The notes under the pieces: model-generated | The model's database searches: none | What the model saw: only the letters and a program-made list of their open reading frames with translations | What the model was told of the DNA's origin: nothing | Source of the DNA: a virus | Strand: one strand, 5' to 3' | Virus record (IMG/VR): IMGVR_UViG_3300048839_000702 | Coordinates: 1 to 48,717 of that record | DNA length: 48,717 nt | Program-made: the position numbers and the translations under genes | In this document: positions 2,178 through 46,043 of the stretch, one piece after another | Position numbering within the stretch: position 1 is the stretch's first letter | Layout of the letters: every line of letters starts with the position of its first letter

Positions 2178-4868
2178 ATGGGCAGATTCACCAAGAAATT
2201 CGGGCCAGTGTACAACAACCTGTGCTCCGACATCTTCAAATTCTGTGAAGTGATGAATTTCACACCATCCTTGCAGCAAAAACAGGCATTGGAAGCAGTC
2301 CAAAGAGCCCAAAACGGCATCGGGAGTAACTGGATAGCGGTGCGCAGCGGCCAGGGGCCAGGTAAGTGCCTGACGGGTGATTCTGAGGTCCTGGATGCCG
2401 TAACTGGTAGGCTATGCACACTGGAGGAGTTGGCAGGCACAGGCCGTAGCATTAGCGTATACTGCATGGACACCGTCACACAGAAAATCAAAACGGCCCC
2501 TGCTCATGCATTTCCCTCCGGGGTGAAGGATTGTGTGGTTATCTCCACCGATGCTGGTCAAAAGATAAGCCTCAGCACAGACCACCCGATGTTCACCCCA
2601 GCCGGTTGGAAATCTGCATGTCTCCTAAAAGAAGGTGATCTGGTAGCAACTCCACGAAGACTGCAAACACCTATTCTTCCGTCGCGGATGACCGACAACG
2701 AAGTCATATTCCTGGCATATATGTCCGCTGATGGTGGTACTGCTGGAGGTAGTTGTGGTTTTACCCAGATGCCTGGGAAGGTACTAGACGAGTTCCTGGA
2801 TGTTACAGTACGGCTTGGTGGATCTACTCGCCGGAAGAAGAGCATGAGCAAGGCCAATGAGTACGGCATTAGTGGGATGCGCCCGTTATCGTCGGTGCAC
2901 GGACTTAACGATTGCCTTGCTAAACACAAACGGATACCTCCGGAAGTCATGGGACTTCCTGATAGACAACTGGCATTGTTTTTGAACAGGTTCTGGGCCT
3001 GCGATGGGTATATCGAAAAGGACGGCCCTGGGACCTGCCTTGCCAGTGAATTGCTGGTGCGAGATATCCAGACAGCACTATTGAGGTTCGGCATACGAAG
3101 CAGGGTCAAGTACAAAGCATGCAGATATGAGAAAGAAGGCAAAGTATTCGATGCTTGGAGATTGACTGTATCCGGAGTCACCAATCTTCTGACCTTCTAC
3201 GCCAACATAGGCATGGTGTTAGGTAAAGAGCCTGCGTGCCAGAGATCATGTAACAAGGCTCTGTGCAAGTCTGAGAACACTAACACAGATATTGTCCCTA
3301 TCCAGATTAAAGAAATGCAGGATATTATTTCTGATTTAGGCGTAGCGAGTAGGAAGGGACAGAAACCAGAAGCTGGGCAGTTGACCAAAGGCAAGATTCG
3401 AAAGATCTGTCGCGGTCGTGATTATTCGTACTTGTCCAGGGACAAGTTCAAAGCATTTTGTGAATTGGCAGATTACCAGGGCAAGTACCGTAAACTGGCC
3501 GAAAATGACATATATTGGGTCCGTGTGCGAAGTACGAAGAGCATAGGACAGATGCCTGTATACGATATGGAGGTCCCTGGTGTTGGTAATTTTGTCTGTA
3601 ACAATCTTATTGTACACAATACGGCCCTGAGTACTATAATCGCTTTTTGGAGAGCTTTCAGGTCTTACAAGAGCCTCACAATCGTCACGGCTCCGACTAT
3701 GAGACAGTGCAAGGACGTGTGGTTGGCTGAAGCCAGGAGAAATCTGGAAAAAGCGGAACCATGGATCAAGGGGTTCATCAAAATCACCAAAACTAGGGTA
3801 GTTATCGCCAAAGATCCTGAATGGACTATCCTCACAGCCACTGCAACCCGGTCAGAGGCAGCCCAAGGGTTCCACCAGGACAATATGACAGTCATCGCAG
3901 AGGAGGCCTCTGGTATTCCAAGGGACTTGATCACCCAATATAAAGGCACTTTATCCAACAGGGATGCTCTTTTCTTGATGATCGGGAACCCCAACGTGCG
4001 GGATTGTGCCTTTTTCGACTGTTTCTATGGCTTGATGAATGACAGGTGGTTTAAGTTGGTGTTCAATGCGGAAGAGTCTCCTCACGTAAATCCGCAACGA
4101 AACAAGGACCTGGAAGAGGAATTCGGTCGGGATTCGGACGTTTACCGCATCCGAGTCCTCGGTGAGTTCCCTCTGGTGGACCCGAATTGTGTCATGGGCT
4201 CTGACGAAGTCATTAAATGCATGGATTCCGCTATCCGGCAACGCGCAATTGGGACAGAGAAGGCAGCGGAATACGGCGGCGGGTTGGTCCGGGCCTTCGG
4301 GCTTGACTTTGCCCGTATGGGCGGCGATGAGAATGTCCTGTCCAGGCGATTGGGCATGGCCCAGACCAAACTGGACATACTTCCTCACTCAGAGCCAATA
4401 AAACTCGTCAGAATGGCCTTTAAGCAGCAAGAACAGATGGGGTGGTCAGATAGTCAGACACTGTACGTTCCGGATGCCACAGGCATGGGACAGGGCGTTT
4501 TATTCTCATTCTATGAGCAGAATAAGCGAGTCCATGAGTTTCATAACCATGGGACACCGTATTCTTCTAAATATGCCAATAAAGTCACCGAGGGATGGTT
4601 CCACATGAGGGGATTGGTCAGGAAATCGAATTGTTACCTGATCCAGGACCAGGTCCTTTTGAGTCAACTGTCAAACAGGCAATATTTCCATAACAAAAAA
4701 GGACAGATTATCGTAGAATCCAAGGATGATTACATCAAAAGAGGCAATGATTCCCCTGACCGGGCAGATGCCACTATTCAGTCGTTCTATGATTGTCCGT
4801 TCGTCCCAGCCAAAGTCAGTTCTCGGGACTCAGGAACCCATCTGGTAGGCACAGGAGCAAATAGATGA
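2178..4868 (+). CDS. terL: Terminase large subunit (TerL) precursor, interrupted by an intein
   Basis: The product is the ATP-driven DNA packaging motor with a headful or cos nuclease. The 896-residue precursor holds a 418-residue intein (residues 64-481), leaving a 478-residue mature protein, a normal TerL length. Walker A is GQGPGK at residues 58-63, completed by Thr482 only after splicing. Walker B is VIAEEASG at about 572-579. C-terminal RNase H-type nuclease acids are likely in GLDFAR (about 707) and in NDSPDRADA (about 858). The start is preceded by AAAG only; the next gene overlaps its stop as ATGA. Without splicing the ATPase site cannot form, so packaging depends on intein excision. 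Confidence 0.95.
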   Translation: MGRFTKKFGPVYNNLCSDIFKFCEVMNFTPSLQQKQALEAVQRAQNGIGSNWIAVRSGQGPGKCLTGDSEVLDAVTGRLCTLEELAGTGRSISVYCMDTVTQKIKTAPAHAFPSGVKDCVVISTDAGQKISLSTDHPMFTPAGWKSACLLKEGDLVATPRRLQTPILPSRMTDNEVIFLAYMSADGGTAGGSCGFTQMPGKVLDEFLDVTVRLGGSTRRKKSMSKANEYGISGMRPLSSVHGLNDCLAKHKRIPPEVMGLPDRQLALFLNRFWACDGYIEKDGPGTCLASELLVRDIQTALLRFGIRSRVKYKACRYEKEGKVFDAWRLTVSGVTNLLTFYANIGMVLGKEPACQRSCNKALCKSENTNTDIVPIQIKEMQDIISDLGVASRKGQKPEAGQLTKGKIRKICRGRDYSYLSRDKFKAFCELADYQGKYRKLAENDIYWVRVRSTKSIGQMPVYDMEVPGVGNFVCNNLIVHNTALSTIIAFWRAFRSYKSLTIVTAPTMRQCKDVWLAEARRNLEKAEPWIKGFIKITKTRVVIAKDPEWTILTATATRSEAAQGFHQDNMTVIAEEASGIPRDLITQYKGTLSNRDALFLMIGNPNVRDCAFFDCFYGLMNDRWFKLVFNAEESPHVNPQRNKDLEEEFGRDSDVYRIRVLGEFPLVDPNCVMGSDEVIKCMDSAIRQRAIGTEKAAEYGGGLVRAFGLDFARMGGDENVLSRRLGMAQTKLDILPHSEPIKLVRMAFKQQEQMGWSDSQTLYVPDATGMGQGVLFSFYEQNKRVHEFHNHGTPYSSKYANKVTEGWFHMRGLVRKSNCYLIQDQVLLSQLSNRQYFHNKKGQIIVESKDDYIKRGNDSPDRADATIQSFYDCPFVPAKVSSRDSGTHLVGTGANR
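2367..3620 (+). mobile_element. LAGLIDADG-type intein inserted in the TerL Walker A motif
   Basis: Residues 64-481 of the TerL precursor form the intein. It begins with Cys (CLTGDSEV, block A), has a block B-like STDHPMF at about residue 133, and ends IVHN with the usual penultimate His and terminal Asn; the +1 extein residue is Thr. Two LAGLIDADG-like dodecapeptides, FLAYMSADGG (about 178) and FLNRFWACDG (about 268), mark a homing endonuclease. The insertion point is between Lys and Thr of the ATP-binding loop, a highly conserved site that favours homing and makes imprecise loss lethal. All splicing residues I can identify are present, so it is probably active. Confidence 0.93.
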
Positions 4869-29549: not shown

Positions 29550-30122
29550 TTAAGGGCTGTAAATGTGACGAAATTTGTGTTTAGAAAAGCGGCCAACCAT
29601 CTCTGCCCCCATGGCTTCCATTTCTCCCTTAGTCCTTGTTTTCGGTCCTGCCTTTCTTGCCACCATCCTTCCATCCAGGAACCAAGTAGCTTCTTTGGCA
29701 GTCTTACCTAGATACTCCCAGTTGGTCGCCTTGTATATTCTACCAGTGTGCCCCTGCATCTCGTCTGCATATGTCACTAGGCAGGGCCATTTGACCCTAT
29801 CAATCAGTTTCATGCTCCTACCCAGTAAGAAGGACGCCCCGTTAGTAGGCACCTCTGGCTCTATGGCAAGCCTAGTTAAAGCCAACACTCCCCTCCAATT
29901 CTCAGGGTATGTGGCATTGGCTGCTGTCTTAGTAGGCGGAATCCACCAAGCTACTCCGTAACATCTAACATCTCCATTTCTAAAAAGACCATGCCTATAT
30001 GTGGCTGTATTGGAGCCTCCACCAGAATAATGGAGTCTGCCAACCATTTCTTGACACACGATAAGCTCTACAGTTTTAACGTACCAATCACACCTCCGCA
30101 AGTGATGGTGGTGTGCTGTCAT
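29550..30122 (-). CDS. Mom-like DNA adenine modification enzyme (GNAT-like)
   Basis: The 190-residue protein matches the Mom family of GNAT-fold DNA modification enzymes, known from phage Mu, where Mom converts adenine to a carbamoylmethyl form that blocks restriction. The diagnostic C-terminal segment is TYADEMQGHTGRIYKATNWEYLG (about 117-139), preceded by an L.L.RLAIEPEVPTNGASFLLGRSM segment (about 81-105). The start at 30122 has GAGGAGAG upstream and overlaps the previous gene as ATGA. No Com-like activator is obvious, although small zinc-finger genes are present elsewhere. Activity on the phage DNA is inferred. Confidence 0.8.
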   Translation of the reverse strand: MTAHHHHLRRCDWYVKTVELIVCQEMVGRLHYSGGGSNTATYRHGLFRNGDVRCYGVAWWIPPTKTAANATYPENWRGVLALTRLAIEPEVPTNGASFLLGRSMKLIDRVKWPCLVTYADEMQGHTGRIYKATNWEYLGKTAKEATWFLDGRMVARKAGPKTRTKGEMEAMGAEMVGRFSKHKFRHIYSP

Positions 30123-30427
30123 ATTATCTCTCCTCTGTGTATCCGGTTGCCTCGGTTGTGAGACACGAACCCTGCCAGAACCACAGGAGGCTTTTTGGAA
30201 AGTATCCAAGGCCTTTTCTTGGAAATTTTTCCAGGCAGGGGATGTATCAATCTCCAAAATTCCCTACGGAAGCTGCTGCAATCATATCTATGAGTTGTCT
30301 TTTCCCACTTCCATCCTACGAAATATACCGTTTCTGTCTTCACTTCTATGGGATCTGGTAAAAAGTCTGTCCTGGTCAGTTCGAGTTCGTAATCCAATCT
30401 GCCATAGTACGGATCGTATGCTATCAT
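30119..30427 (-). CDS. Hypothetical protein coupled to the Mom-like gene
   Basis: The 102-residue basic, aromatic-rich protein (VYFVGWKWEKTTHRYDCSSFRREFW) is joined by ATGA overlaps to both the RuvC-like gene before it and the Mom-like gene after it. No family was recognised. Tight coupling suggests a partner or regulator of the DNA modification step, which remains inference. Confidence 0.72.
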   Translation of the reverse strand: MIAYDPYYGRLDYELELTRTDFLPDPIEVKTETVYFVGWKWEKTTHRYDCSSFRREFWRLIHPLPGKISKKRPWILSKKPPVVLAGFVSHNRGNRIHRGEII

Positions 30428-31038
30428 ATCTTCCCTGCCCTTGCTAAAACCATCTGTTTGTGCCTATGTTTGAAGAAAGTCTCTTTGGCGTACATGGCCA
30501 GCCCGATAGAGTCTGTGATGTGCTTCCAGTCTCCTTTATTGAGGTTCCCGTTCACGCATTCACAGAATCGCATGTCTTTGTCCTCCCAGGATACAGGGCA
30601 GCAATACCCTGACTTGGTCTCGTACTCCCATCCGAGTTTCTGGAACACTCTGGCCTGGTGTATCACTTTCCTAACGGACCCTTTCCACTTCTGTGGCGCA
30701 GGCAAATAAACCTCCCCGACACCACAGCAATGACCTAAGAACACCAGTGCCCCAGAGATCGGGGCTATGGTCAGCAAGTCCCCTGGATTGGCCCCTGACT
30801 GGGCTGTGTAGGAGATCTCCTGGGACTCTACCGCCATGGCTGCTATCCTGGTATGGTCACTGAATGAAGGCAGTTGGTAAGCAAACGTCACCATCCTGGA
30901 AATCATTTCCACGGCTGCTGGTCTGCCCTTTAGTTCCTTGTCGTTCTTTATCACTATGACATCCACTACATGATCCTTATCGTTGCAGGCAGCGATGGAG
31001 AGAGTATGTAGATCAGGATCTGCGCCCAAGAAAATCAT
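30424..31038 (-). CDS. RuvC-like Holliday junction nuclease
   Basis: The 204-residue protein shows the RNase H/RuvC acid pattern: D7 in FLGADPDLHTL, E71 in MAVESQE and D176 in HITDSIGLAMYA. These carboxylates would bind two metal ions. RuvC-like phage nucleases resolve branched DNA before packaging. It is encoded between the sigma-like factor and the small gene before the Mom-like enzyme, with ATGA overlaps on both sides. Confidence 0.78.
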   Translation of the reverse strand: MIFLGADPDLHTLSIAACNDKDHVVDVIVIKNDKELKGRPAAVEMISRMVTFAYQLPSFSDHTRIAAMAVESQEISYTAQSGANPGDLLTIAPISGALVFLGHCCGVGEVYLPAPQKWKGSVRKVIHQARVFQKLGWEYETKSGYCCPVSWEDKDMRFCECVNGNLNKGDWKHITDSIGLAMYAKETFFKHRHKQMVLARAGKI

Positions 31039-31538
31039 AAAGTCACTCCTTCAGTTTTCTTTATCTTCCGGAGCATGTAGGAGATATTTGATTCACATAC
31101 TCCGTACTTCATGGCTATTTCTCGTTGGGTCATACCAGACAATTTCAGCAGGAGTATCTCTTGTCTCTGTTTCGAGTAATTTTTCAGGAATTTCAGGACC
31201 TCGTCTACCAATTCGCAGACTGGGGTCTCTGTTTCATAATAAGGTTGATAGAAGGCTTCTTCCTTGAGTGTATCTAAAGAATATGATTGTCTACGAATAG
31301 TAGAGAGGTTCTTTGATTTAGCTGATTTACCTCCAGAAACCATCTGTTTCATGGACCTGTATGCTACTGTAGCCACAAACCTGATATCAGCATCTCCATC
31401 TAGCCTGCGAAGGCTATCTAACCAGGCATGGTTTATCAAGTCATATGCTTCCAGGCCGTGTCCCGTATAGGATCTGGACAAGACTTTGTGTGCTATCTTC
31501 TCAAGAACAGGCAGCCAGTCTGGGTTCCAGTTTTTCAT
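31035..31538 (-). CDS. Sigma factor-like transcription regulator
   Basis: The 167-residue protein resembles a small sigma70-family factor. Residues about 24-80 (AYDLINHAWLDSLRRLDG, then FVATVAYRSMKQMV) look like region 2, and about 118-160 (RQEILLLKLSGMTQREIA.KYGVCESNISYMLRKIK) is a typical region 4 helix-turn-helix. It probably redirects host RNA polymerase to phage promoters, perhaps the late genes. The ATG at 31538 overlaps the previous stop as ATGA; longer starts would overlap that gene by more than 20 bases. Confidence 0.82.
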   Translation of the reverse strand: MKNWNPDWLPVLEKIAHKVLSRSYTGHGLEAYDLINHAWLDSLRRLDGDADIRFVATVAYRSMKQMVSGGKSAKSKNLSTIRRQSYSLDTLKEEAFYQPYYETETPVCELVDEVLKFLKNYSKQRQEILLLKLSGMTQREIAMKYGVCESNISYMLRKIKKTEGVTL

Positions 31539-31807
31539 TTCACCATTATGGCTAGACATCCGCTGTCCGTCAATCTGGTTTTGTATTTTCTCCCTCTGAC
31601 ATGAAGCCCGGCCCGGAGCATGGCTGCCCAGACCATATTCTTGTACTGCCTGCATGTCAGATCATCAGGAGGTGATAACAGTAAGACCTCGTCTCTTTTA
31701 AGGTCTCTCAGGTCATTGAATATCCATTCATACTTAGACCCTGTTTTAGGCCTATCCTTTTTCCTGAAGGACACGTCCGTCTTCTTTTTCACTGTTGATT
31801 TTCTCAT
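31535..31807 (-). CDS. Hypothetical basic protein after DNA polymerase
   Basis: The 90-residue product is very Lys/Arg-rich in its first 30 residues and then has a helical part (RQYKNMVWAAMLRAGLHVRGRKYKTRL). It is coupled by ATGA overlaps to the polymerase before and the sigma-like gene after. It may bind nucleic acid; no family was recognised. Confidence 0.7.
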   Translation of the reverse strand: MRKSTVKKKTDVSFRKKDRPKTGSKYEWIFNDLRDLKRDEVLLLSPPDDLTCRQYKNMVWAAMLRAGLHVRGRKYKTRLTDSGCLAIMVK

Positions 31808-34023
31808 ATTGGTTTTCCGTTCTCCTTGTCCCAGTTATGCATCAATACACCCTCATATTTGGATACAACGTCAGGCGTCACTACCCGCATGGCCCCTGTC
31901 ATGATCTCACCAACCTCCCGGAGTCTGGCAGAGGCTTGTTCGTCATCAGCCAACTCCGCAATGTTCTCGTCGTGAACGAAGTTGATAACTCTCGCAACGG
32001 GACCGTACTCATCACAGCCATAAAGAATAGACTTCAAGCTGGGGTCATAACAGGCCCGGACCACACGGTAATTCCCCAGCAAGGCCCCTTCAGCAGAAAA
32101 GGCCTGGAGCCCGGCCCCGTTGCATGCAGCACAGTAGTCAGCCCCAGCCCGGTACATTCCGAAGGGGGTAGTATAGGCATACAATTCATCACCCTTCTTG
32201 TGCTTCCTGAGATGCAAAGTGGATGTGTTGCGTTCATCCACGCAGTTGTCTGTGATCCATTTGAAGTACAATTTCATCTCAGGGTAGGTTTCGAACCAAA
32301 TCTCTTTCAATCTGGTAGCGAGTTCCTTGGTTAAGACAACATGGTATGTGGCTGCGGCAAACTGGATAAATGTGGCAATGCCCAGGCCACCAGGCAGGCC
32401 AAGGCCGGTTGGCTTGGCCATGGTACGATAGTGCTTGAACATATCATGGTGTTTCTGTTCCCACAATGAACTGTCCTTCATCTGCACAAATAAGTCATAT
32501 ATCGACTCTTTGTCGCGACACTGTGCTTTGTCTGCTATGGCCCTGAACTCGTCATCCACATGGTAGGCGATCTGCGACCCCAAATACGCATGCGCATCGA
32601 CTCCGGCATTGATCTTGTCGGCCAGGACAGAAAAGCCAAAAAGTTGCAAACACTTCTGCGCAAGCGTACCAAGCTCCATACCGCTGAGGTCAACTGATCC
32701 CAGGATTCTGTGAGGTCTGGCCCTGTAACACTTCCTGACCCTGGGGTCAATGTTCTGACCGTTGGCAGATGGGAACGAGTCGGATGCCTTGGATGAAGAT
32801 CTTCCTGTTTTCTTGAGGCTGTCGTAGGGAAAGCGAACGATGGGAGATATTACCCCATACCCATCCTGGTCCAAGATTGGGTCTTTGTTCTCATCCTTCA
32901 GGCACATGCGAGGAAGCTCCGTAGTGACCAGCTTCTGCACGGCCTCTCGTTGTTGCAGGGCATGCAAGATTGGGTCCATATGTGCATACTTTTCCAGCCA
33001 AGCTGCGGAGACGCTTATCTGACCGTCCGGGTAGGTGTCCGAGGGTGCCGTGTAGTCGAGTTCGATGTCCGGATTGTCCTTGGCCAGTGTGGAGACGTAT
33101 GACTTGAGGTTGTTTGTGCTCTTGGCCTCTTTCTTGCCCTTGGTCATCTTGGGAGGACAGTCACAATTAACTTTCTTCCCAGAAATAGGGTCTTTCCAAG
33201 ATTTCTTGCATCCCTCTCTGTGCTGCTTGACTCCCCTGGCTGCGGGTCGAGGAGGTATGGCAGGACTCAGTATCTTGGCATCGTAGAGAATTTGCATCTT
33301 TTCGGGAGATAGTTCTTTTGCCAGAAACTCGTCAATTTTCTTTTTCTCCGTTGCGTCCGTGGCCATGCCCCAGGCCGTAACCAGGGATAGGCTAAAATCG
33401 AACATGCAGCGATATGTGAGAGGTTTAAATGGGTCTATGCCTGTTGCTGCCAGGAAAGTGTTCTTTCTGTCTTCCTGGGCTTGCCAGAGCCTCACGACCC
33501 ATACACTGTCGTCCGTGGCATACTGAACAGCAGCCTCTGGCCAATCAGCCGAAGGAATGGTTTCCAGCTTATCGTAGTTCATGCGCCACGCATCAGCCCC
33601 CTCTTTGCCTCCTATCTTCTGGCCAAAGTACTGAAAGACCAGATCAGCCAGGGAATACTTGATAGGGGCACCCACCAAGGGGTCGGATGAGATCCCACCA
33701 TGGTCTGCCAAGTTCAGGAGCTTTTCCCGGATGATGGTGCAATGCAACCGGCCTGATTCCAGAAGCTCGAACACGTTGGTAATGATCTCTGGTCTGCGGT
33801 TGATCAATACCCCCAAATCGAAGGATGCTCTGTGTGCGATCCGGATCATGGGACTGTCGAGGTCAAAGAGGGCGTCTATCAGATCGTCCATACCTTCGTC
33901 GGTGCCGCCCACCAAGCCCTTGCTGGTCTCGTCCCCGGTACACCAGGACGTGCAAATCAAGGGAGGGGCCACATGATTAATGTCTATAAGATGTGTCTCT
34001 GTGTCAAATCCTAATAATTCCAT
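31804..34023 (-). CDS. polA: DNA polymerase I family A with 3-prime to 5-prime exonuclease
   Basis: The 739-residue protein has a DnaQ/Pol I-type proofreading domain (GFDTET at 5-10, AHRASFDLGVL near 75, YATDDSVW near 168) and a family A polymerase domain. Motif A is VDLSGMELG (about 444), and motif C is FVHDENIAEL (about 681) with its HDE core. The O-helix reads MAKPTGLGLPGG (about 534), unlike the usual K...FG..YG, but it keeps the Lys. It replicates phage DNA. A terminator precedes the gene, so it likely has its own promoter or depends on read-through. Confidence 0.93.
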   Translation of the reverse strand: MELLGFDTETHLIDINHVAPPLICTSWCTGDETSKGLVGGTDEGMDDLIDALFDLDSPMIRIAHRASFDLGVLINRRPEIITNVFELLESGRLHCTIIREKLLNLADHGGISSDPLVGAPIKYSLADLVFQYFGQKIGGKEGADAWRMNYDKLETIPSADWPEAAVQYATDDSVWVVRLWQAQEDRKNTFLAATGIDPFKPLTYRCMFDFSLSLVTAWGMATDATEKKKIDEFLAKELSPEKMQILYDAKILSPAIPPRPAARGVKQHREGCKKSWKDPISGKKVNCDCPPKMTKGKKEAKSTNNLKSYVSTLAKDNPDIELDYTAPSDTYPDGQISVSAAWLEKYAHMDPILHALQQREAVQKLVTTELPRMCLKDENKDPILDQDGYGVISPIVRFPYDSLKKTGRSSSKASDSFPSANGQNIDPRVRKCYRARPHRILGSVDLSGMELGTLAQKCLQLFGFSVLADKINAGVDAHAYLGSQIAYHVDDEFRAIADKAQCRDKESIYDLFVQMKDSSLWEQKHHDMFKHYRTMAKPTGLGLPGGLGIATFIQFAAATYHVVLTKELATRLKEIWFETYPEMKLYFKWITDNCVDERNTSTLHLRKHKKGDELYAYTTPFGMYRAGADYCAACNGAGLQAFSAEGALLGNYRVVRACYDPSLKSILYGCDEYGPVARVINFVHDENIAELADDEQASARLREVGEIMTGAMRVVTPDVVSKYEGVLMHNWDKENGKPI

Positions 34024-35577: not shown

Positions 35578-35769
35578 TTATAATATTGAATTTGTCTTTG
35601 GATCATTTTTGCAATTGTCGCACACTGTAGGAGGCACGCTTTCATCCATCTTGGTAAAACTTACTGGCGGCATTCCCATAGCGGCTGCAATATTTTCCAT
35701 TTGTGTCCTGTGCTGTTCACAGATTGATGTGTCTCTACCTGGCCAGTGTGCAATGTATTTAGCTTTCAT
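35578..35769 (-). CDS. Small zinc-binding-like protein
   Basis: The 63-residue protein has C18-E-Q-H21 and CDNC near residues 50-53 (C..H and C..C pairs), a likely single zinc site. It is coupled to the upstream helicase gene by ATGA overlap. The role is unknown; small zinc proteins of this kind are frequent in phage early operons. Confidence 0.7.
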   Translation of the reverse strand: MKAKYIAHWPGRDTSICEQHRTQMENIAAAMGMPPVSFTKMDESVPPTVCDNCKNDPKTNSIL

Positions 35770-37988
35770 TTCATACTCCCGAATTTGTCTTCCATCAATT
35801 CTCTTTGCTCTGCTGACAACTGTTTGTTCTGCAAGCCACGTTCTCTCAGGACTTCTGAGGGCATTATCACAGGGAGGGGGTCGTAGGAGGCATATACCAA
35901 CTTTTGCCTGTTGCCTGTGGTCTGGTGGATATACAGGGCATCGTTAAGACAGGCAGCGAAAGAGAGGAAATCGAATTCCAGAGTGTTAAAAGTCCCTGCT
36001 ATGATCTCATCACTTCGCTGCCCACTGCGATGGAGCCTGCCTAATGCCTGTTCTGCTGTGATTGGGTTTCTAGGCCATTCCACAAATACCTGATTGGAAA
36101 ATGCCTGAAGGTTCTTGCCCGTGCTGTGTGCTGGTATTGACGCCACCATGATCCTGTGTTCGTTCTCCGGATTAATGATGTCAAAGTTACCCTTGGGTCC
36201 AGCAGGGCAGTGTATGGCATCCACACCAGCAGCCTGCAAGGACTCCACCATCCAGATACCCATCTCCTGGTGCATTACCCATATGATGGCTCCTATACCT
36301 TCCTCAGACAACTCCATAGCCCATTGAGTAGCCGCATGCACTTTGTAGTCACATACCCTCACAGCCCTGGCATCTCTATCCGGTCGTCCCTCAAAATCAA
36401 GGCTCTTGTGGTACATCCAAGCCTCATAGAGGTCAGTGCCTACGTTCTGGGCTCCATGGTTGGACATGTCCAGTCCCACAAGGTCCGGGGTGTCTAGTCC
36501 GCTGCGTCCCCTCTCTCGCAACCAAGTCCGAAGGACACTATTGTATGCTTGGCCAGCTTCTTGGTGCAGCTTGGCCCTGTCCAGGATATCCTCGGCCTCT
36601 TCCTCTGAGATGTCCTTCCTCTTGGCGTATTTCTCTGTACTGGGCCAGATCAGTTCATTGTAGAATCCTGCCGTCAATTCGTTGAACCATTTCCATTTGT
36701 GGATCGCATGTGCGATCTCGTCACCGTTGGGTGTCCTGTCTTCTTCCTGGACTACCCTGATAAGTTCGGTCAACTCTTCCCATCCGGGCCTATTCTCAGG
36801 ATTCTGCACAGGGGTGTTTTGAAGGATCAAAGACACACCGATATCGAGATCCCCGGAGGATACCACACCTGGGGCTGAGACGAGCCTGCATCTGTAGGCT
36901 TTACGGAAACCAGTCTTATCCTCAGTGATGTGCTCTGTAGGGAAGTTGGTCTGAGCCCACTCTACCAGGGGTAGTAATGGGCCTGTATTCGATACCACTG
37001 GACCGTCCTGCACACTGCCGTCAGAGTCTATGACAGCCGCCCATTCATTAGCTAGGCTGGCTGTGTTCGGTAGCGGATTATTCTCTCCCAATGCCCATCT
37101 GATCAAGTGGTAGTAATCTCGAATGGACTTAGAGGTAATGGTGCCCGACAGATGCACTCCTGCAGGACGGTATTTATCCACGTACTTCAAGAGCCTCCCG
37201 GTCCTGGCAGCAGATTTATTTTTAAGTTTGTGCGCCTCATCACACTCTATAAGTTCTGGCCTTATGGCTTCCAAAAGGTAATCAGTATCTTTAACGGACA
37301 GCAAAGAATAGGGCATTATATAGAGACCCTTGTTTCCGCTGTCGGCTATGCGTTTTCTCTCCCTGGCTGACTTATTGCCCAGGACCATGATGGGATACGA
37401 GATAGCCACGTGCCGTCTGGCCATCTTGATATCCACTGTGACCAATTGCTGCAAGACTTCTGGAGGTAGGAGAAGCAGAATTTTCTTGGTGCCTTGCTTA
37501 AATGCATGGTTAGCGATCATCAAAGTAACCAGAGTCTTACCGAAACCCACCCCTATCGGAAAGAACCCACCTCCTGTTTGCTGAAAGGCTCTCAACGCTT
37601 CTGCCTGGGGAGTGAACAACCGCCAACCCCTTTGATACATCTCGGCGTTGACGTGGTAGTAATTGAAAAGCTCCAACTGCTCTTTGGTCATGGGCGGGTT
37701 TATCGGGATCTTGACAATCCTGTCCATTTCCAGATTCTTGGCGTATTTGCTGGTATGTGCTTTTTTGTCCAGCAAGAGCATGCTATTAGGCACATCACCA
37801 TCGAACACTCGACCCAGGCCACTCTCTTCCAGGTCTTGGACCGTGTGAGTGACGTGGGGTGTGTAGGATCTTTGTTTTAGGAATGTGTCTAATGCGTTTG
37901 TCTCTTCTTCTGGATCTAGGCCGCCTATGTATGTGCATGCCTTATCGTAAGGATCGTTTTCGTTGCCTGGGTCCCATCCGGTAGTCAT
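35766..37988 (-). CDS. SNF2-type superfamily 2 helicase
   Basis: The 740-residue protein has the ordered helicase motifs: Walker A GVGFGKTL (about 144), DEAH-box ECDEAHKLKN (about 247), motif III LSGTITSKS (about 280) and motif VI QALGRLHRSGQ (about 646). The last motif is typical of Swi2/Snf2 enzymes. It likely moves or remodels DNA-protein complexes during replication or recombination. A long insert separates the two RecA-like lobes (about 300-520). Its stop and start overlap neighbours by ATGA. Confidence 0.9.
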   Translation of the reverse strand: MTTGWDPGNENDPYDKACTYIGGLDPEEETNALDTFLKQRSYTPHVTHTVQDLEESGLGRVFDGDVPNSMLLLDKKAHTSKYAKNLEMDRIVKIPINPPMTKEQLELFNYYHVNAEMYQRGWRLFTPQAEALRAFQQTGGGFFPIGVGFGKTLVTLMIANHAFKQGTKKILLLLPPEVLQQLVTVDIKMARRHVAISYPIMVLGNKSARERKRIADSGNKGLYIMPYSLLSVKDTDYLLEAIRPELIECDEAHKLKNKSAARTGRLLKYVDKYRPAGVHLSGTITSKSIRDYYHLIRWALGENNPLPNTASLANEWAAVIDSDGSVQDGPVVSNTGPLLPLVEWAQTNFPTEHITEDKTGFRKAYRCRLVSAPGVVSSGDLDIGVSLILQNTPVQNPENRPGWEELTELIRVVQEEDRTPNGDEIAHAIHKWKWFNELTAGFYNELIWPSTEKYAKRKDISEEEAEDILDRAKLHQEAGQAYNSVLRTWLRERGRSGLDTPDLVGLDMSNHGAQNVGTDLYEAWMYHKSLDFEGRPDRDARAVRVCDYKVHAATQWAMELSEEGIGAIIWVMHQEMGIWMVESLQAAGVDAIHCPAGPKGNFDIINPENEHRIMVASIPAHSTGKNLQAFSNQVFVEWPRNPITAEQALGRLHRSGQRSDEIIAGTFNTLEFDFLSFAACLNDALYIHQTTGNRQKLVYASYDPLPVIMPSEVLRERGLQNKQLSAEQRELMEDKFGSMK

Positions 37989-38155: not shown

Positions 38156-38520
38156 TTGCCTGTGCTCTCCAAGGACTCTCTTTCCTGGTCCAAGTCTCTG
38201 AATAACGCCTGTTCGCTCTCAAACTTTTCGGGATACCTGATTTTCAGCTTCTGTATGTTCTTTGGCCATATATCATCCTCGAATGAGTAACCTAATTTGT
38301 TGGCTATCAGGGCGATGTACCATTGCAAATCACCAAGCTCTTCAAGAATGTTCACATGGTCTAAAGGCTTCCCGTAGAACATGGCTTTCTTGACCGCGTC
38401 CATCAACTCTGCTGCTTCCGTGACGCACCCCGCAGCACCATGTATAATATCCGAATCTATGGCATGCACCTTCCCGGACGCTGTTCGTTTGCATAGTTTT
38501 TTATACTCTTCACCTGTCAT
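38152..38520 (-). CDS. MazG-like nucleotide pyrophosphohydrolase
   Basis: The 122-residue protein contains the all-alpha NTP pyrophosphohydrolase pattern TEAAELMDAV then ILEELGDLQWYIALIANKLG (about residues 33-77), with metal-binding EAAE and EELGD acids. Such enzymes hydrolyse NTPs or alarmones to monophosphates and may adjust nucleotide pools or (p)ppGpp in infection. It is joined by ATGA overlap to the LigA-like gene before it. Confidence 0.85.
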   Translation of the reverse strand: MTGEEYKKLCKRTASGKVHAIDSDIIHGAAGCVTEAAELMDAVKKAMFYGKPLDHVNILEELGDLQWYIALIANKLGYSFEDDIWPKNIQKLKIRYPEKFESEQALFRDLDQERESLESTGK

Positions 38521-38885
38521 GATTGCCTCCCTAAAAGCACTCTGCCTACAGCATTGTAGATTTCAAAAGTAGGTTGATCGAACTCTATTGCATACCCTGT
38601 CCCGGCCTGGAGTTGTTCTTTGTCCAGAAACTTTTCTGGGTGCCTGACCTGGGTTTTTAAGAGGTCATAATTCACATACAAAAACTGACACAAGGCATCA
38701 TACCAGGCATCCGACATCAGGCTTACGTTCATCTTGTAGTAGGCCATAGAAGTCACCAGATAGAGCGTGTGTGACATAATCAAAGGGGCCTCATGCAACT
38801 GGGCTTCTCCTGTCTTCAGAAGGTCCATGTAAGCCACCAGGTTTTCGGCTGCCTCTGCCCAAATGTCGTCGTATGAAGGTGTCAT
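38517..38885 (-). CDS. LigA-related small protein (DNA ligase domain Ia-like)
   Basis: The 122-residue protein resembles the N-terminal Ia domain of NAD-dependent DNA ligases in its middle and end: SLMSDAWYDALCQFL (about 55-69), then HPEKFLDKEQLQAGTGYAIEF (about 82-102). The adenylation domain and its catalytic Lys are missing, so it is not a ligase alone. Stand-alone relatives occur in phages next to replication genes; the role is unknown. Confidence 0.65.
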   Translation of the reverse strand: MTPSYDDIWAEAAENLVAYMDLLKTGEAQLHEAPLIMSHTLYLVTSMAYYKMNVSLMSDAWYDALCQFLYVNYDLLKTQVRHPEKFLDKEQLQAGTGYAIEFDQPTFEIYNAVGRVLLGRQS

Positions 38886-42385: not shown

Positions 42386-44977
42386 CTATTTGCCCTTTAG
42401 TTTCTCTCTGTTGTTTAATAGTATCTGTAAAATGTCACACTTCCATCCATCACGCTTGGTCACGTCCAGAAGGATATGCAAATCAAGTTCATGCCATCGC
42501 CTGCGTCCCATCACTTCCCTGTCAGACAACACCATACCTCCTCTGGTGGTCTTAGAACACGATACACTTTTCAGGGTGTTGAGTACCATGGCCATAGAAA
42601 ACTGCTCTTTTCCGTTGGATGCTGCCCTGTGTGCTGTCAGGATATCTGCTGCCAGAATAAAGATCTGACCTGTCCTATGTCTGATCACCAGCCCAGGGCG
42701 ACTGGCCCCCGAAGCAATCATGTTGATTATGGTCTCGATAATCAACGGCGCAGATCCTGACTGGGTCTGCATATCGAACATCAGTTCTTCATTGTATTCA
42801 CCTTCAACCAAGAACCGCTTACCACAGGGTCCCAAGGCTCTACGGTGTTCGTACAACCACAGAAAATGCTTTGCGAGGATGTAATCACTTTCCACCCCTC
42901 CGTCCGGGGCTATCCATCTCTGCCCCAGTCTGCCAGTATATTCGATACCCCCGATATTTCGCAAAAACTCAGGGGCTCGCCTGTCGTACTCAATATGAAA
43001 CAACCGCTGAGCCAAGGCCTGCCGGTCGTCTGGCGATAATTCCCTGTTGGCTGTGAGCACCTTGATAACATCCATGTTGTTGGCCGTGAATAAAATCCTA
43101 ACTGGATTCTTGATACTCACCGGGTGACGGAACTTTTCAACCGCCATTATCGGATCACCCGAGGTTAGTTCCCTGAACTTGTCTGCAGGGTGCATACCGT
43201 TGGCTGACCTGGGCCAGCCCTCGTTGATGAGAAGGAAAGGGCTTCTCCTCAGACCGTACTGGTATTGCCCTACGAGGTCTGCAGAACTCGCCAGGGCGGG
43301 TTTTTCCAGGGTCTCGGCTAATCCCTGGGCAAATAGTTTTTTGCCTGCTCCTGGAGGGCCTGCAAGACTCAGAGCACATATAGGACCCTCTTCAAACGCC
43401 AAGGCCCAGGCTATCCACTGAATAGCTTTATCGTAATGCTCAGCAAACAGACACCGGAGCCATTCATCCACAGTGGTGTCAAAGTGAGGTACAAGGAAGG
43501 CATTCCTACGGAAGGAAGGGAGAACCAGTGTGGCGTCAGGCCGGTCTATGTTTCTGATCATCCCACCATCCAGGCACGGCACAGCCTCTATGTCTCCCAC
43601 AGGGGAGGAATGATTCGAGAGAATATCCAGGAGAGAGACAGGAACCAGGCCGGTTCCCGTTGCGTTGGGTGCCTGCAATTGGATAGCCCCACTCATTCCA
43701 AGGGCCTTTATACGGGGTATTAACTGCCTGTAAGCGGTAGGCATAGCGTCATAGTACCCATCTTTTTTCATCACAAAAAAAGACTCTCCTGTGTTGGCTA
43801 TCAAGTGCCTGGATACCCAGTCAACCGCTTCATGGGAATCTAATTCGGGATGGTCGCACCATTTCTTCATGTTCTCAGCAATCTCGGGCAGGCTTTCCGA
43901 CCCCAGGGCCATCTCTTGTTTGACAGCCAGTTTCCTGGCTTCATAGCTGGCTGTCTCCTTGGCCCAGATCCGCAATACCGCCGACCACAGCACGTCTGTC
44001 CAGTCCGGTGTCTGGTCGTCTCCCTCTAATTGCAGGACCGGGTCCAGGAAGAGGGCATAGACTTTCTCCGGCCCACAGTCCTTGAGCCTGTAAATGGACC
44101 TGACCACCTGGCCCACAAACCTGACGATTGTATCGTCTCGTTCTCCCTCTTCTGCCAAAGGAACCCAATCAAACAGCACCGGATACACTGGCTTGTTTCT
44201 CAGACTAAGCCTGGCCCGCTCCACCCAGGGGGCTCTTTTGGTGGGGTCCTCTGGCTTTGCGAGGATTGCATGGGCTTCTTCAATCGAGGGCTTGGGTAGG
44301 TCCGGGATGACGACATTTACATAATTGGATGTGCTCGATTTCTCGCTGCCCAAGTCCTTTAGGGCCAGGATACTGTCTGGTTGGTACTCCCCGTTAAAAT
44401 ACGGCTGTTCCCAGGTGTTCTTGCCGTCCCTCAGTACCTGGGGAAGTCTGAATACTCTGGTCCAGTCAGAACACTTGTGGTCCAGCACCAGCTTGTGTCT
44501 GAAAAGTTCCTTGACCATCCATTTGTGGTGTCCCTCTGCCTGGTCTACTGGGATCGTTTGGTCCAGGAGATAGATGATGCGCACGCCATGCTCAGTGAAA
44601 TAGGAGTATGTCCACTTGCTGACCCAGGGTATATCCTGACCCAGGGCCTTAAATGCATCCATCCAGGCTTCCGGCTCTCTGGGGTTCCAGGCCCTGTGTC
44701 CGGGCAGGTCCCAATCGAACACCATCATATCCGTCACCAAATCCTCTTCCCGGTTGCGTATCTGTCCCAGGACGGTCTTGTTGCACCTGGGATACGGGTC
44801 TCGGGTCTTCAAGGGGCGGTAGGTGACGAAGTGGGCATCGGTGGAGTACTCGGTAGACAGGGCCTCCTCCAGGGGCGTAGGTGTCATAGAAGGTATGCCT
44901 GTGTCTGTGAGGTTGTACATCCCTTTCAGGTACTTATGAGGCATGACCCCCACCTGCCTAAGTAGTCCGTTGCTCAT
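42386..44977 (-). CDS. AEP primase fused to SF3-type helicase
   Basis: The 863-residue protein has an N-terminal archaeo-eukaryotic primase region with the MMVFDWDLPG acid pair (about 85-93) and SDWTRVFRLPQ (about 168-178). A C-terminal helicase has Walker A AGPPGAGKKL (about 540), a Walker B-like FLLINEGWP (about 576), and the sensor RILFTANNMDV (about 626). This plan matches phage D5-like primase-helicases that prime and unwind at the fork. The GAGK is followed by Lys rather than Thr or Ser. Its N-terminal MSNGLLRQ is shared with the next gene upstream. It overlaps that gene by ATGA. Confidence 0.88.
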   Translation of the reverse strand: MSNGLLRQVGVMPHKYLKGMYNLTDTGIPSMTPTPLEEALSTEYSTDAHFVTYRPLKTRDPYPRCNKTVLGQIRNREEDLVTDMMVFDWDLPGHRAWNPREPEAWMDAFKALGQDIPWVSKWTYSYFTEHGVRIIYLLDQTIPVDQAEGHHKWMVKELFRHKLVLDHKCSDWTRVFRLPQVLRDGKNTWEQPYFNGEYQPDSILALKDLGSEKSSTSNYVNVVIPDLPKPSIEEAHAILAKPEDPTKRAPWVERARLSLRNKPVYPVLFDWVPLAEEGERDDTIVRFVGQVVRSIYRLKDCGPEKVYALFLDPVLQLEGDDQTPDWTDVLWSAVLRIWAKETASYEARKLAVKQEMALGSESLPEIAENMKKWCDHPELDSHEAVDWVSRHLIANTGESFFVMKKDGYYDAMPTAYRQLIPRIKALGMSGAIQLQAPNATGTGLVPVSLLDILSNHSSPVGDIEAVPCLDGGMIRNIDRPDATLVLPSFRRNAFLVPHFDTTVDEWLRCLFAEHYDKAIQWIAWALAFEEGPICALSLAGPPGAGKKLFAQGLAETLEKPALASSADLVGQYQYGLRRSPFLLINEGWPRSANGMHPADKFRELTSGDPIMAVEKFRHPVSIKNPVRILFTANNMDVIKVLTANRELSPDDRQALAQRLFHIEYDRRAPEFLRNIGGIEYTGRLGQRWIAPDGGVESDYILAKHFLWLYEHRRALGPCGKRFLVEGEYNEELMFDMQTQSGSAPLIIETIINMIASGASRPGLVIRHRTGQIFILAADILTAHRAASNGKEQFSMAMVLNTLKSVSCSKTTRGGMVLSDREVMGRRRWHELDLHILLDVTKRDGWKCDILQILLNNREKLKGK

Positions 44978-45756
44978 GCCTTGGCTATCCTCTCTGATGC
45001 TATCTCAAAGTACTTTTCATCTAATTCTATGCCTATGAAAGTTCTGTTCAGATTCTTGCAGGCCACCCCGGTCGTTCCGCTGCCCATAGCGAAGTCCAAA
45101 ACTGTCTCACCTTCGTTGGTGTAGGTCTTGATAAGGTATTCCATCAGGGCGACAGGTTTTTGGGTGGGGTGGACAGTATTCCCTTCGTTCTTAATAGATA
45201 AGACCGAGTTAGGGAAATTTGTGTACTGCTGTATTCTTTCTGCTTTATGGCTTGGCCTCCCAAACCTATGCCCACCAGAATCGGCGACACATGTCTTTAT
45301 ACCGCTTACCCTCTTATTGACCTCTATCAAATCTTGAGGATTGTATGTCATTCTATTCTTGCATCGATTAGCACAATTCCCAAAACTAAAAACTATAACG
45401 TCCTCATGTTTATTCATTGGCTTATTTTTAGCATTTGGAAAACCCACAGCCCTGCTCTTATCCCACACCCAACAATACTTAAACATCTTCATATTAGACG
45501 CTATCAAGGTCGTGGTGAACGGCTGTGAGGCGGTCATAACAATCGCACCATTGGGCTTGATGACTCTTTTTAGATGCTCCCACATTGGTTCCAGCGGAAT
45601 CATGCTATCCCAATGACAATTTGTCGTTTGGTAGGGCGGGTCTGCCATCACCATATCTACAGACCCATCAGGAATCTCTGACATCCATTCCAGGCAGTCG
45701 CCCTGGACCAAGAAAACCTCGCTCTTCCTGTCCTGCCTAAGTAGTCCGTTGCTCAT
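44974..45756 (-). CDS. DNA adenine methyltransferase, beta class (DPPY)
   Basis: The 260-residue enzyme has DPPY in MADPPYQTTN (about residue 39) and the SAM-binding FAMGSGTTG (about 221) at the C-terminal side. This IV-before-I order is that of beta-class N6-adenine/N4-cytosine enzymes; DPPY favours adenine. It probably methylates phage DNA to avoid restriction or to regulate it. Extra basic residues lie in the target recognition region (about 80-150). The N-terminus MSNGLLRQDRKSE repeats a tag shared with two neighbours. Start chosen by ATGA overlap with 45753. Confidence 0.92.
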   Translation of the reverse strand: MSNGLLRQDRKSEVFLVQGDCLEWMSEIPDGSVDMVMADPPYQTTNCHWDSMIPLEPMWEHLKRVIKPNGAIVMTASQPFTTTLIASNMKMFKYCWVWDKSRAVGFPNAKNKPMNKHEDVIVFSFGNCANRCKNRMTYNPQDLIEVNKRVSGIKTCVADSGGHRFGRPSHKAERIQQYTNFPNSVLSIKNEGNTVHPTQKPVALMEYLIKTYTNEGETVLDFAMGSGTTGVACKNLNRTFIGIELDEKYFEIASERIAKA

Positions 45757-46043
45757 GCGTTTTCTGCTTCCCATTTCTTGAAATCAATCATCCGCTCAGG
45801 AGACATGTCATAGTCTTCTATCATCCCACCATCTTCGCAATTAGGACATAAATCGACTAAGTAATACCCACTCTCCCAGTCGCCATCCTCCTCTTGGGTA
45901 CATTCCGATACCTTGCCAGACCAACCGCACTCACTGCACCTGGCCATGTCTGGTTTTGGCATTCTATGAGATTGCTTGGCCCCAATCAGGAAATCTCTAA
46001 GAATATCGCTCTTCCTGTTCTGCCTAAGTAGCCTATCTTCCAT
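45753..46043 (-). CDS. Zinc-ribbon small protein with shared N-terminal tag
   Basis: The 96-residue protein begins MEDRLLRQNRKSDI, similar to the neighbours' tag. CSECGWSG (about 36) and CPNCEDGG (about 68) form a likely four-cysteine zinc ribbon, followed by an acidic C-terminus. The ATG at 46043 has an AGAGG site. Function unknown; it may act with the methyltransferase coupled to it by ATGA. Confidence 0.75.
   Translation of the reverse strand: MEDRLLRQNRKSDILRDFLIGAKQSHRMPKPDMARCSECGWSGKVSECTQEEDGDWESGYYLVDLCPNCEDGGMIEDYDMSPERMIDFKKWEAENA

Follow-up and report, generated by a model that had tools for sequence, protein, structure and literature searches.

The 48,717-base virus record analysed here in full (the window) in all likelihood encodes an intact Mom-family enzyme that stands at the end of a replication gene chain, puts an acyl-derived group onto N6 of adenines in the progeny DNA and so blocks host restriction. 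Mom would be translated at the end of a gene chain led by the DNA polymerase and made together with it, and it would transfer a small acyl-derived group (carbamoylmethyl in Mu) to N6 of many adenines, modifying newly made phage DNA during genome copying; the packed genomes would then resist, as host restriction enzymes would fail to recognise the DNA. To our knowledge, Mu is the one phage in which the chemistry of Mom has been established. The family has hundreds of environmental members (248 in one scan), some of them beside a replication polymerase, and represents a reservoir in which enzymes with other base groups, sequence ranges and timing could be sought; as regards the present phage by itself, the outcome is a solid annotation and a testable prediction.

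Mom-family GNATs have been described in jumbo phages as well, where DNA modification is predicted and the reaction, in the accessible part of the paper, is given as acyl transfer to adenine N6 (PMC7824862). The Mu base is named methyl-carbamoyladenine, and cited as not blocking DpnI, in the accessible part of PMC8281217. Further Mom-like genes are found in the available passages of PMC10434257 and PMC11318856, and a figure legend of PMC13232217 presents PHROG 1384 as modelled. A literature search on a tRNA-charged donor for Mom found no mention of 'glycyl-tRNA' in the papers it listed.

Family, fold and conserved residues

The gene opens with ATG, and its product, YADEMQGHTGRIYKATNWEYLG, matches the Pfam Mom model PF25680 with 100.1 bits (E 1.7e-28; curated cut-off 27.1 bits) and phrog_1384, 'Mom-like DNA modification protein' (E 7.8e-29), while phmmer against the PDB returns 8bv8, 'Methylcarbamoylase mom' (E 1.7e-7). 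These scores lie far beyond chance and bear out an earlier reading of the letters alone (the sequence-only reading), which had matched the protein to Mom. In a tblastn search of 50,697 phage records, 195 contained a match, every one below 60% identity and the top row at 33.9%. An AlphaFold2 model built on a 13-sequence alignment (the window protein and 12 relatives) reached pLDDT 90.5 and pTM 0.83. Foldseek placed both chains of 8bv8 first among PDB entries (E 6.8e-12 and 2.4e-11; next chain 5.2e-6), and VIA-align gave 8bv8 a Z of 17.8 over 179 residues with an rmsd of 3.2, the next entry reaching 14.6 over 135. The sequence-only reading had allowed that a structural search might place the protein in another GNAT family; the best PDB match was Mu Mom itself, and the comparisons support a Mom-family protein rather than another GNAT. 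The window gene is a well-supported new member of the family, and the enzyme itself is of an already known kind.

The window protein and Mu Mom (8bv8, NP_050657.1) share the fold and the family-wide residues at 24% identity. The PDB entry is titled 'Mom inactive mutant S124A', and S97 of the window protein aligns with Mu S124, numbered on the 241-aa Mu sequence. Conservation was followed across 83 aligned rows, comprising the window, Mu, six named phages and environmental loci (76 offered, one of which gave no row). R84, A119 and Y130 are invariant (83/83), and H31, Y32, N94 and D120 are kept in 82/83; the S97 column holds Ser in 81/83 and Thr in 2/83. The H125 column, part of a GHxG motif, is His in 82/83 rows and Arg in Mu only. 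The residues associated with activity in Mu (S124, from the title of 8bv8, among them) are preserved in the window protein as S97, R84, D120 and Y130. The published Mu mutants H48, R101, D139 and Y149, whose numbering runs shorter by ten, correspond to the conserved columns named above. A P-x-N-x-x-S signature precedes the helix formed by residues 95-106.

The replication gene chain and its neighbours

Mom is the last gene of a chain that runs from the family A DNA polymerase through p90, the sigma-like, the RuvC-like and the basic 102-aa protein (Table 1). ATGA overlaps join polymerase and p90, sigma-like and RuvC-like, RuvC-like and basic, and basic and Mom, and GGAGAG precedes the Mom ATG; with this gene order and its four overlaps, the replication operon proposed from sequence holds. 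The basic protein is an orphan without a family match; the one candidate relative, a single 16-residue match (L109), was read as chance. The score of the sigma-like protein against TIGR02937 (42.1 bits) falls just under the cut-off of 42.9.

Table 1. Coordinates of Mom and other features of the window
Feature	Position	Strand	Evidence
DNA modification protein of the Mom family (190 aa) with a GNAT fold	29550..30122	-	profiles, structure model, alignment
Basic orphan of 102 aa (pI 9.6, one Cys) sharing an ATGA overlap with Mom	30119..30427	-	no family match
RuvC-like protein of 204 aa, with D7, E71, H173 and D176 as candidate metal ligands	30424..31038	-	weak
Sigma-70/ECF-like HTH protein, possibly with an internal true start	31035..31655	-	below curated cut-offs
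90-aa protein (p90), weakly like the gene after the MW202816 polymerase	31535..31807	-	E 0.005
Family A DNA polymerase, first gene of the chain ending in Mom	31804..34023	-	Pfam, PHROG, MW202816 homology
SNF2/DEAD-type helicase, same replication module	35766..37988	-	Pfam, PHROG, MW202816 homology
122-aa protein, DNA ligase N-terminal domain	38517..38885	-	PF22745 E 4e-10
Beta-class DNA methyltransferase, possible second modification enzyme	44974..45774	-	PF01555 E 4.3e-34
Large terminase with intein	2178..4868	+	PF14890, LAGLIDADG_3

The mom gene of Mu is a late, Dam-dependent gene with com overlapping it upstream, whereas the window gene lies without com in a DNA polymerase operon. Upstream of Mom no overlapping com zinc-finger gene and no cluster of GATC sites just before the start were found, the nearest site lying 230 nt away at 30352 and the next at 30412, in agreement with the suggestion that a Mu-type Com/Dam switch is missing; since it has a single Cys and Mu Com is Cys-rich, the 102-aa protein is not a Com-type zinc finger. 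A consensus scan, whose promoter and terminator counts differ from those of shuffled sequences by no more than about two standard deviations, detected no minus-strand promoter-like site between 31545 and the Mom start but did detect a terminator-like site just upstream of the polymerase (34067-34047). Occlusion of the Mom start by RNA structure, as in Mu, was also considered and set aside: the 91-nt leader folds no more strongly than shuffled sequences do (z -0.71).

The RuvC-like nuclease of the sequence-only reading fared less evenly. Its motif and remote synteny with MW202816 weakly favour it: blastp against the annotated RuvC of that phage gives E 0.001 at 25% identity in a 14-protein subject set, and D7, E71 and D176 are in register with it, H173 being a candidate fourth ligand. 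Neither Pfam nor PHROG matched at 0.01, the PDB returned no RuvC, and AlphaFold without an alignment gave pLDDT 33. Peptide patterns found no relative in IMG/VR, and the phage records yielded one chance match (E 0.9). In MW202816 the order is SNF2 helicase, polymerase, a small protein, an N6-adenine methyltransferase, another gene and RuvC, small genes filling the gap from the helicase to the polymerase; both of these proteins are homologous to their counterparts in the window, and the DNA methyltransferase belongs to the same gene chain as the polymerase and RuvC. Because of this arrangement and these homologies, RuvC is probably part of an old replication module, and the RuvC-like gene probably lies beside Mom incidentally, as a member of that module rather than a partner of Mom. 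The phage is otherwise an orphan: patterns from its DNA polymerase find no relative in IMG/VR, and one phage record, at 27%. The 122-aa protein of Table 1 contains only the N-terminal NAD+-binding domain of an NAD-dependent DNA ligase, with no ligase catalytic part in its ORF.

About 15 kb from Mom lies the predicted beta-class DNA methyltransferase, whose class is confirmed by the PF01555 match and by the motif order, DPPY at residue 45 preceding the FxGxG-type motif (motif I) at 228. DPPY enzymes mostly make m6A. Mom and the methyltransferase probably both aim at adenine N6, and with a shared target they would compete at any shared adenine instead of stacking into the two layers of anti-restriction modification that the sequence-only reading put forward as a possibility. 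Palindromes are rarer in the window than expected, 6-mers reaching 0.70 of expectation as compared with 0.96 in the MW202816 stretch, and CTAG (45 vs 109 expected) and AGCT (84 vs 152 expected) being depleted among tetramers; the lineage therefore seems to be still under restriction pressure, which argues against full protection.

Relatives of Mom and their surroundings

Relatives of the window Mom were drawn from 95 loci, namely 13 loci, a further 80 (the best 80 of 248 encoding a relative) and two genome loci. After removal of 13 same-contig repeats, of L011 (its Mom gene being identical to that of L012) and of five loci with short or partial matches (L023, L065, L077, L095 and L096), 76 loci remained. 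In the Mom tree (76 rows, seven of the 83 alignment rows having been dropped), the window Mom clusters with L002 and L003 (support 100/98), within a separate environmental clade of 54 rows that is likewise supported at 100/98. The end branch of Mu is long, with 4.2 changes per column where the median is 0.45, and its placement is unsure.

When 22 window proteins were compared by tblastn with the 13 Mom-relative loci, Mom was matched in 13/13, and among the other 21 the methyltransferase alone was matched, at 35-41% and in three loci. Near the closest relatives, at 81% and 77% protein identity, no other tested window protein lies within 8 kb. Sequence comparison marks Mom as transferable cargo, since the genes closest to it reside in unrelated genomes. 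Because third codon positions of these two agree at just 33% and 39% in spite of the high protein identity, an old transfer or divergence between genomes is indicated rather than recent exchange; GC content (0.48 in the gene, 0.50 in the window) gives no sign of recent import. A second Mom-like ORF occurs within ~6 kb of the first at ten environmental loci (L079, L085-L093), and L090 has three in a row. Seven loci (L053, L055-L057, L059, L060, L067) have in common a ~410-aa protein ~1 kb after Mom, which by eye resembles a ParB-type N-terminus joined to a DNA-methyltransferase-like part.

The surroundings of Mom were read in ten named phages. Mom stands directly before polymerase I in the Microbacterium phage BarnCat (gp63) and directly before the DNA polymerase in the Salmonella phage VSiP (vsip_41), and follows polymerase I at ~0.9 kb in the Mycobacterium phage HermioneGrange (gp39). 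These three homologues resemble the window Mom in adjoining a DNA polymerase or lying within ~1 kb of it, but they share 26-34% identity with it and have other neighbours. In PK3.6, Mom is flanked by a helicase region and SSB, and an N6-adenine methyltransferase is present as well; Mom adjoins a helicase in Lupine and a DNA methylase in Vibrio 1.187.O, has neighbours of unknown function in ICP1 and PMBT8, follows an antiterminator in pAEv1818 and comes after tail genes in a Porphyromonas phage. Since other phages, too, have Mom beside a polymerase or helicase, its placement in the replication module is right for this phage but not peculiar to it. A literature search poor in subscription papers found no discussion of Mom beside phage DNA polymerases.

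Environmental loci point in the same direction. Among 101 of 197 neighbouring genes, mostly longer ones and hand-picked, PHROG recognised nine phrog_62 helicases, five phrog_17 polymerases and five phrog_116 DNA methyltransferases; Pfam recognised DNA_pol_A, SNF2 and C5 DNA_methylase five times each and N6_N4_Mtase three times. For the control, 176 genes were collected at 66 places unrelated to one another, and the 101 longest were used; these came from 54 of the places and averaged 348 aa (346 aa for the Mom neighbours). As the first 15-base control pattern had drawn 36 of its 78 loci from one phage group, each group was reduced to a single locus and another pattern was brought in. In the control, with its single-member families partly listed, the families of polymerases, helicases and DNA methylases had at most one match each (Fisher: 9 vs at most 1, p 0.019; 5 vs at most 1, 0.21), a hint from sequence that Mom neighbours may be richer in helicases than the control, some Mom loci being related to each other. 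By tblastn with queries taken partly from the same loci, a polymerase A or helicase lies within 6 kb of Mom at 18/76 loci, and a methyltransferase match was obtained at 19/76.

Alternative functions

Against the reading of the protein as a DNA-modifying enzyme of the Mu kind, its identity to Mu Mom is 24%, the targets of most other GNATs with this fold are small molecules or proteins, and the His of GHxG stands where Mu has Arg, so that the group transferred may differ. It is quite possible that this Mom-family DNA modifier adds a group other than the carbamoylmethyl of Mu and that Mu is a divergent outlier of its family, as the long Mu branch (of unsure placement), the nearly universal His and the separate, supported clade of the window would suggest; on the other side, the window protein preserves the residue matching Mu S124 along with the rest of the family-wide positions, and the fold of the window Mom is closest to that of Mu. 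A broader proposition, which we consider doubtful, is that momylation coupled to replication is the common form, that the late, Com/Dam-gated Mom of Mu is the exception and that GHxG-His enzymes add a non-Mu group. If this is true, unrelated phages carry Mom in modules of polymerase, helicase and DNA methyltransferase, and their DNA would be modified while it is made.

An acetyltransferase that targets a protein or small molecule in the course of infection would fit the fold common to GNATs (Z of 12-14 against NatA, RimI and others), a weak partial match of residues 79-158 to the NCBIfam family XF1762 (NF045478; E 0.0005, 19.9 bits against a cut-off of 50) and the plain label 'acetyltransferase' borne by several phage homologues. 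We find it rather improbable, given that Mom models win in Pfam, PHROG and Foldseek alike and that P-x-N-x-x-S takes the place of the usual GNAT motif, R/Q-x-x-G-x-G/A. Less credence still is due to a dedicated modification-restriction pair of Mom and the RuvC-like nuclease. It would recall the Mom-REase fusions proposed in jumbo phages, Mom there being typically fused to nuclease domains according to the accessible part of PMC7824862, whereas the window Mom stands alone. Although only one small gene separates the two in the same chain, RuvC proteins are usually resolvases, and the RuvC-like gene is absent from the fetched flanks of all 13 Mom relatives, which share no such neighbours; it was rejected as a conserved cassette partner, and a special association between the two genes, which the sequence-only reading placed next to each other, is not supported. 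In MW202816, moreover, RuvC comes after the polymerase, and the 37.6 kb examined out of 48.5 kb showed no Mom.

Outside these modules, the large terminase carries an intein, recognised by the PF14890 splicing domain (residues 81-481) and LAGLIDADG_3; its flanks, GPGK and T, point to the ATPase P-loop as the site that it interrupts.
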